Part shown: piece by piece, positions 37,296 through 38,728 of the stretch
Layout of the letters: each line of letters opens with the position of its first letter
Numbering within the stretch: position 1 is the first letter of the stretch
Assembly: GCA_016792565.1 (NCBI GenBank)
Contig: JAEUMK010000065.1
Span: forward strand, 1-41,355
Direction of reading: 5' to 3'
Length of the DNA: 41,355 nt
From: Alphaproteobacteria bacterium
GTDB taxonomy: Bacteria > Pseudomonadota > Alphaproteobacteria > Micropepsales > Micropepsaceae
Position numbers and translations under genes: made by a program
The notes under the pieces: generated by a model
What the model was told of the DNA's origin: nothing
Database searches by the model: none
What the model saw: only the letters and a program-made list of their open reading frames with translations

Positions 37296-37572
37296 GCGAC
37301 CCTCGCTGGAGCGATGGAGACGACCATCCCACCGGCGACGGGCGAGGCATTGTGGTCCGCCCCGGCTCAGCCACCACGGGGTGTATGCGCTCCCGGTGCG
37401 ACGGCGCAGCGACCGGCGCATGAATCTTCAGCGACGACGCAGCCCTACGTTTACGTAAGCGGCTGCGTCAATTTGACCGAAAGCTGAGCGCGCGTCGTTG
37501 CTGCGCCGCACATTTTTATTATCTATCTGAAATCATTGATAAAAAAATGTATTCATCAACTGATGAAGAGAC
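37296..37572. other. gene-free region with AT-rich island and several dyads
   Basis: This part of the 426-base gap between 37295 and 37722 has no supported coding gene. 37446-37457 holds TACGT-TT-ACGTA and 37467-37477 holds GTCAA-T-TTGAC, both inverted repeats. 37500-37572 is strikingly AT-rich for this genome, with ACATTTTTAT near 37510 and ATAAAAAAATGT near 37539 nearly complementary. It probably contains the control region of the small RNA that follows and the upstream part of the phosphoesterase promoter. Confidence 0.6.
37552..37567. promoter_or_regulatory. perfect dyad upstream of the small-RNA promoter, candidate operator
   Basis: TTCATCA (37552-37558), AC, TGATGAA (37561-37567): a perfect 7-bp inverted repeat with a 2-base spacer, ending 5 bases before the -35 box. 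Its position suits an activator or repressor of the small RNA. The binding protein is unknown. Confidence 0.5.
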
Positions 37573-37600
37573 TTGACTTGGAGAGCGATGATCCTTAAAT
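37573..37600 (+). promoter_or_regulatory. sigma-70-type promoter of the small RNA
   Basis: TTGACT (37573-37578, inside CTTGACTT), a 16-base spacer, and TTAAAT (37595-37600). The -35 agrees with the alphaproteobacterial CTTGAC form and lies just after an AT-rich stretch. Transcription should start near 37607, leading into a structured RNA with a strong terminator. Confidence 0.65.
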
Positions 37601-37606
37601 GTTGCA

Positions 37607-37696
37607 GTGCGAGAGGCGCTCCGGCGCGCTCGCATGCCCTTCCTGGGCGTTTCCTCCCTAAACTAGGGCCGCTCCTCGGAGCGGCCCCTTTTCTTT
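37607..37696 (+). ncRNA. small regulatory RNA resembling suhB/MmgR (alpha-r8) family
   Basis: About 90 bases between a good promoter and a perfect intrinsic terminator, with no open frame. Predicted fold: stem one TGCGAG/CTCGCA (37608-37634) with inner GCGC-TCCG-GCGC; stem two GCCC-TTCCT-GGGC (37636-37648); then GTTT-CCTCCCT-AAAC (37649-37663), a small hairpin or single strand displaying CCUCCC, which can pair with ribosome-binding sites; then the terminator. The TTTCCTCCCT segment before the terminator is what I remember from the alphaproteobacterial suhB/MmgR sRNAs. Family assignment is from memory; existence of a small RNA is well supported by sequence. It would act in trans on mRNAs, probably with Hfq. 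Confidence 0.7.
37666..37696 (+). terminator. intrinsic terminator of the small RNA
   Basis: GGGCCGCTCC (37666-37675) pairs perfectly with GGAGCGGCCC (37678-37687), followed by CTTTTCTTT. This is the strongest Rho-independent terminator in the window. It lies 26 bases before the stop of the convergent amidohydrolase gene and may insulate both. Confidence 0.88.
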
Positions 37697-37721
37697 CCAG
37701 GGTCTGCTTTCCCGGTGGCGG

Positions 37722-38615
37722 TCAGCCCGCGTCCGGCGGAACCCAGGCGACGAGGGCCTCTACGAAGCGCTCCAGCCGCTGGCGCAGGAGGTCGAAAGAC
37801 GAGGGCCTCTTCTCGAGCCGCTCCTCGTCGAGATAGAGCGCCCGGTTGATCTCGATCTGCAGCGCATGGATGCCGCGGCCGGGCGCGCCGTAGCGCTCCG
37901 CCGTGTAGCCGCCGGCATAGGGATTGTTGCGCGCGACGGCGAAACCCAGCGCCCGCAATACCTGTTCGGCGTGGGCCGTCAGTCCTGGCGCGCAACTGGC
38001 ACCGTAGCGGTCACCCAGAATGATGTCCGGCGCCGGTCCGCGCCCGGCCGCCGAGGCGGCCTGTGACGGCATGGAGTGACAGTCGATCAGGACACAAGCG
38101 CCGAAGCGCCGGCGGGTGTCGCCCACCAGGCCCGCAAGCGCTGCGTGATAAGGCGCATGCAGTCCGGCCAGCCTTCGCGTCGCTTCGGAGAGCGGCAGCT
38201 TGCGCAGGTAGATGTCGGTGCCGTCGCGCACCACGCGGGCGATGACCCCAAGGCCGGCATGAACGCGCGGCGAGCGCGTGTGCGGTGTCGAGGGCGGGGC
38301 CTCCAGGAACACCGCGGGATCCAGTTCGGCCGGATCGCGATTGGCATCGCAATAGGCCCTTGGAAAGAGCGCCAGCAACAGCGGCGCCCCAAGCGCGGGA
38401 ACACCAGCGAAAAGCTCGTCGACATAGCAGTCCTCGGACCGGCGCAGGGTCAGCGGGTCGAGCCGCGTCGCGCGAAGCAGATCCTCGGGATAGTCGCGCC
38501 CGCTGTGCGGCGAGGCGAAGACGAACGGCACCCCCTGAGCGGCCGGCGCCCTGATTTCCAGCGGCGGACCTGCGAAGCCGGCAACCGGACCGGCGATTTC
38601 GGCAAGGACGTTCAT
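37722..38615 (-). CDS. N-formylglutamate amidohydrolase
   Basis: A 297-residue enzyme of the N-formylglutamate amidohydrolase family, the last step of one histidine-degradation route (formylglutamate to glutamate and formate). Family motifs: FASPHSGRDYP near residue 38, RSEDCYVDELF, PRAYCDANRDP, VLIDCHSMPS with its His, and LQIEINRALYLDE near the C-terminus. ATG 38615 gives the normal N-terminus; an upstream in-frame start three codons earlier exists. It is divergent from cpdR, an arrangement I recall from other Rhizobiales. No other hut genes are nearby, so it could also act on related N-formyl amino acids. Confidence 0.92.
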   Translation of the reverse strand: MNVLAEIAGPVAGFAGPPLEIRAPAAQGVPFVFASPHSGRDYPEDLLRATRLDPLTLRRSEDCYVDELFAGVPALGAPLLLALFPRAYCDANRDPAELDPAVFLEAPPSTPHTRSPRVHAGLGVIARVVRDGTDIYLRKLPLSEATRRLAGLHAPYHAALAGLVGDTRRRFGACVLIDCHSMPSQAASAAGRGPAPDIILGDRYGASCAPGLTAHAEQVLRALGFAVARNNPYAGGYTAERYGAPGRGIHALQIEINRALYLDEERLEKRPSSFDLLRQRLERFVEALVAWVPPDAG

Positions 38616-38728
38616 GCACCGCACAAAACCACCGAGGCGCCCGGCGGGGCAAGGGCGTTCAACTCTCCCTTAAGCACCGATCGTCCACTTTACAGTCGAA
38701 TCGCCGCCCCTGTAGGGTTCCGGCGCGC

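Follow-up and report, generated by a model that had tools for sequence, protein, structure and literature searches.

A single-copy αr8 (suhB/mmgR) small RNA gene with a PhaR box at its promoter in a member of the Micropepsaceae

What is encoded between a metallophosphoesterase gene and the gene for N-formylglutamate amidohydrolase (FGase) in this alphaproteobacterial genome, and what might it do? We analyzed the locus within a window of 41,355 nucleotides (the whole stretch of DNA considered here) and compared it with the rest of the genome and with relatives. The first-pass annotation, made from the letters of the DNA, had suggested an independent small RNA gene, probably of the suhB/MmgR family, and had named a scan for Rfam family RF00519 as a check. 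The scan bears this out: the plus strand carries an independent small RNA gene of the αr8 family (Table 1).

Family, locus and transcript boundaries

The only Rfam match within the whole window is to RF00519 (suhB/mmgR, or αr8), at 37629-37702, with a score of 66.1 bits (E = 1.3e-11). The gathering score for this family is 41 bits, and the match spans the whole model (1-77). An RF00519 search of the genome found one copy. Across 61 genomes (the present one, others of its genus and family, and a sample from its class), the family is present in 43, some with two or three matches. The 20-mer GGGCGTTTCCTCCCTAAACT alone retrieves at least 120 stretches, nearly all of them labelled Alphaproteobacteria, and the window has a single occurrence of the 21-mer TGGGCGTTTCCTCCCTAAACT, where 0 were expected.

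We also noticed sub-threshold second matches to RF00519 in two members of the genus (G003:C1:1248411-1248498 and G002:C171:5321-5387), which may be diverged paralogs or chance matches. And one record with the αr8 core (L048) is labelled Mesoflavibacter sp., a Bacteroidota name; probably the label is wrong or the record is alphaproteobacterial.

Table 1. Features of the αr8 locus, in coordinates of the window.
Feature	Position	Strand	Basis
-35 element CTTGAC	37572..37577	+	CTTGAC kept in genus (L001, L003, L009, L014, L015)
-10 element TTAAAT, 17 nt spacer	37595..37600	+	sequence position relative to CTTGAC
PhaR/AniA core box TGCAGTGCG, perfect YGCRNYGCR match, overlapping the predicted start	37603..37611	+	motif search
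αr8 (suhB/mmgR, RF00519) small RNA, predicted ~89 nt	37607..37695	+	ends inferred from promoter and terminator
5' hairpin (SL1)	37607..37635	+	shape kept, sequence not
GCCC-UUCCU-GGGC hairpin (SL2)	37636..37648	+	predicted fold, alignment
10-mer UUUCCUCCCU, unpaired seed complementary to ribosome-binding sites	37650..37659	+	invariant in alignment
Intrinsic terminator: 9-bp stem (37666-37687) and T-rich CTTTTCTTTC	37666..37697	+	fold, compensatory stem changes
FGase gene, convergent neighbour	37722..38624	-	Pfam PF05013, 258 bits

The αr8 gene and the FGase gene are tail-to-tail, with 26 bp between the end of the RNA and the FGase gene. The gene order is glycosyltransferase, metallophosphoesterase, αr8, FGase, and a CpdR-like regulator. 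This full order recurs in relatives from the genus and the family, in Parvibaculum (L080), in a metagenome-assembled genome from the Rhodobiaceae (L137), and in others, and FGase adjoins αr8 in most close relatives. Linkage to FGase is part of the standing description of the αr8 family (PMC12559287).

The CTTGAC-type promoter that had been proposed holds up: CTTGAC and the start region are conserved across the genus, and the -35 element reads CTTG(A/C) in most members of the family. The counterpart of the -10 element is TATAAT in one genus member (L015) and CATATT or TATATT in many family members. Judged by its sequence, this is an alphaproteobacterial promoter of the sigma-70 type. A simple sigma-70 scan of the window called no promoter at the αr8 gene because it accepts only -10 elements with A as their second letter. 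The arrangement CTTGAC-N17-TTAAAT predicts a start at about 37606-37607, and together with the terminator this supports the earlier estimate of about 90 bases from near 37607. We infer that the gene is expressed as this transcript.

The first-pass annotation had also described the region as lacking an open frame. This is not literally so, as a mechanical list of open reading frames includes two TTG-initiated frames that cross it (87 amino acids on the plus strand and 110 amino acids on the minus strand). However, neither looks gene-like. We rejected them as genes: among relatives, the sequence of the 5' hairpin and the lengths of the hairpins vary freely.

The element might instead merely serve a neighbouring gene as its leader or terminator, with no independent RNA. 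The αr8 terminator does lie close to the end of the FGase gene, but FGase is on the opposite strand, and the T-run of the terminator is on the plus strand only. Furthermore, a conserved promoter-like sequence of its own stands immediately before the first hairpin, and the same core is kept in copies that have no FGase in their stretch. This explanation, which was already disfavoured, seems to us extremely improbable.

RNA structure and its conservation

The predicted transcript folds at -49.7 kcal/mol, as compared to a mean of -33.5 kcal/mol for 200 dinucleotide shuffles, none of which did as well (z = -4.5). The fold comprises three hairpins, the terminator stem being the third, and leaves the CCUCCC segment open. 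To compare structures, 30 homologues were aligned, and each was also folded as a single sequence. In these single-sequence folds, the terminator forms in all 30, and so does a 5' hairpin with 5 bp or more, although its sequence differs almost completely. The RNAalifold consensus over the aligned homologues yields the GCCC hairpin and also the terminator, whose stem shows compensatory changes. It misses the 5' hairpin; the probable reason is that this part varies too much in sequence to be aligned.

The CCUCCC segment had been read as an anti-ribosome-site sequence presented between GTTT and AAAC. The anti-ribosome-site role is supported: at least 9 of the 10 nucleotides of the invariant 10-mer UUUCCUCCCU are unpaired in the folds of 29 of the 30 relatives. 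A 4-bp stem between the GTTT and AAAC flanks is possible in 26 of the 30, but the predicted folds leave these flanks open, so the sequence is better termed single-stranded than a hairpin loop.

Membership in αr8 was judged by the covariance score, a single-stranded 10-mer after a short hairpin, a Rho-independent terminator, and a locus adjacent to FGase, and each of these was found. The gene is ordinary in kind, in that it is one more ortholog of a family that is already in Rfam and has been studied in two model species, Sinorhizobium meliloti and Caulobacter (PMC7143759, PMC12559287). Hfq is encoded in the genome. It is very likely that this is a single-copy, trans-acting RNA, orthologous to MmgR of S. 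meliloti and SisA of Caulobacter, that depends on Hfq and pairs by its 10-mer with ribosome sites.

A PhaR box at the promoter

In S. meliloti, mmgR is repressed by PhaR (AniA), a regulator of carbon storage, and its promoter is bound by the purified protein; the core of the PhaR/AniA motif is YGCRNYGCR (PMC12542648). The perfect match to this core at the αr8 promoter (Table 1) would mean little without its position and its conservation, as the core is short and has 70 matches in the 41-kb window. The same box stands at the equivalent position in each of the four relatives from the genus. More broadly, 55 of 75 FGase-linked αr8 promoters have a box within about 90 nt (about 6 were expected, from windows at the same loci), although αr8 homologues are not independent and these are not 75 separate trials. 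Among the other αr8 copies, 39 of 71 have a box, as compared to about 5 expected. The box extends into the beginning of the RNA, and part of its constraint may come from the 5' hairpin.

The genome also encodes PhaR (PF07879, 107 bits), three PhaC-type synthases, and phasins. The promoter of one phasin gene (L160) reads TTGACA...TATAGG...GCTGCAGTGCAGC, with the box just after the -10 element, and the promoter of another (L161) has two boxes. Given these sites and genes, αr8 probably belongs to the PhaR regulon in this species. The first-pass annotation had left the connection to polyhydroxybutyrate (PHB) open; the box at the αr8 promoter and the presence of genes for PhaR, PhaC and phasins now lend it support. 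(The nitrogen connection in S. meliloti is the control of mmgR by NtrC; PMC7143759.)

We also noticed that many αr8 promoters, from Microvirga, Parvibaculum and others (L059, L072, L080, L110, L131, L140), have two PhaR-like boxes. They lie around the -10 element at a spacing of about 19-20 nt, and the same arrangement is found before phasin gene L161.

Candidate targets and a possible link to carbon storage

In Caulobacter, SisA, together with Hfq, uses the same 10-mer to pair with the mRNA of a TonB-dependent receptor close to the start codon. Compensatory mutations proved this pairing, and further receptors and hppA are also repressed (PMC12559287). By analogy, the 10-mer of αr8 would pair with ribosome sites here and so repress the mRNAs, and the starts of TonB-dependent receptors are predicted candidate sites. 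We compared 9 receptors to 60 other open reading frames, in sampled stretches of the genome (nominal p = 0.018). Receptor starts rank 1, 4 and 5 in seed pairing among the 69 starts, but the comparison is biased, as some stretches, including that of receptor L156, were chosen for matching the seed. The ranking is also only suggestive because the ribosome sites of the receptors are stronger by anti-Shine-Dalgarno energy as well. The predicted duplexes at receptor starts have energies of -26.0 (L196), -21.5 (L156) and -20.8 kcal/mol (L200), and a receptor gene from a second member of the genus (L166) has GGGGAGGAAA before its ATG. We give even odds that the mRNAs of TonB-dependent receptors are targets in this species.

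A pattern search of the genome for the full seed complement, AGGGAGGAAA-N(3-12)-ATG, gave 0 matches. The shorter pattern GGGAGGAA-N(3-12)-ATG gave 9 matches, as compared to 0 in a reversed control, but it contains the Shine-Dalgarno sequence, so this enrichment by itself means little. Three of the candidates were rejected: L157 and L158 are dispersed CCTCCCCC...GGGGGAGG hairpin repeats, and at L153, which is phosphoglycerate dehydrogenase-like, the site sits inside such a hairpin.

This dispersed palindromic repeat, CCTCCCCC-GYGRAC-GGGGGAGG, stands before several ATGs in the genome (L153 at about 1480-1515, L157 at about 1480-1521, and L158). It mimics the complement of the αr8 seed, and once it lies directly before a D-3-phosphoglycerate dehydrogenase-like gene. 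Separately, a hydrophobic open reading frame of 39 amino acids (L154) has GGGGAGGAAACC directly before its ATG, which is among the best seed complements in the genome.

SisA of Caulobacter crescentus is the closest homologue that has been tested experimentally. The two share the FGase-linked locus, the 10-mer and, likely, TonB-dependent receptors as targets. However, C. crescentus has four sibling αr8 RNAs instead of one, and no motif common to the four sis promoters was reported (PMC12559287). MmgR resembles the RNA described here in its Rfam family, 10-mer, three stem-loops, terminator, and PhaR/AniA box at the promoter (PMC12542648, PMC7143759). But MmgR is 77 nt long, instead of the 89 nt predicted here, and the PhaR site is upstream of the start of mmgR (by our reading, position 13 in the table of PMC12542648) instead of on the start.

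We also considered that the main role of αr8 here might be direct, MmgR-like control of PHB granules via phasin mRNAs, instead of control of receptors. In S. meliloti, PHB and phasins are altered when MmgR is lost (PMC7143759), and this genome has phasin and PhaC genes. However, MmgR has no described direct target (PMC7143759, PMC12559287), and direct pairing at the ribosome sites of the phasin genes is not convincing: seed pairing is poor at the first start of L160 (-7.9 kcal/mol), and the first start of L161, at -19.5 kcal/mol, lacks a GGGAGG-type site. So we think a phasin-centered role is unlikely. It is less likely still that the level of αr8 is set mainly by a sponge RNA, as CrfA does for SisA. 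CrfA sponges all four Caulobacter αr8 RNAs via the same 10-mer (PMC12559287), but the sequences here that match the seed complement (the CCTCCCCC...GGGGGAGG repeats at L153, L157 and L158) resemble repeats, not small RNA genes.

Instead, we propose that PhaR, by binding at the start site, probably represses the promoter. PHB granules would titrate PhaR, so that αr8 RNA would be made together with the phasins. With Hfq, the open 10-mer would then pair with purine-rich ribosome-binding sites and repress a set of mRNAs at the level of translation, those of TonB-dependent receptors most likely among them.

It has already been demonstrated that PhaR controls mmgR and that SisA controls receptors, each in a different species. 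What is useful here are two predictions that extend the published work: the PhaR box, which is conserved at αr8 promoters outside of the rhizobia, and the receptor targets. Together, they suggest a simple connection, open to testing, between the storage of carbon and the uptake of nutrients. More tentatively, and with somewhat less than even confidence, we suggest that in much of the Alphaproteobacteria the PhaR regulon has αr8 as its RNA arm, and that αr8 released by PHB shuts down TonB-dependent receptors. If this is true, then stored carbon would feed back on uptake through PhaR, αr8 and the receptors, and the findings from S. meliloti (PhaR and PHB) and from Caulobacter (repression of receptors) would join in one conserved circuit.
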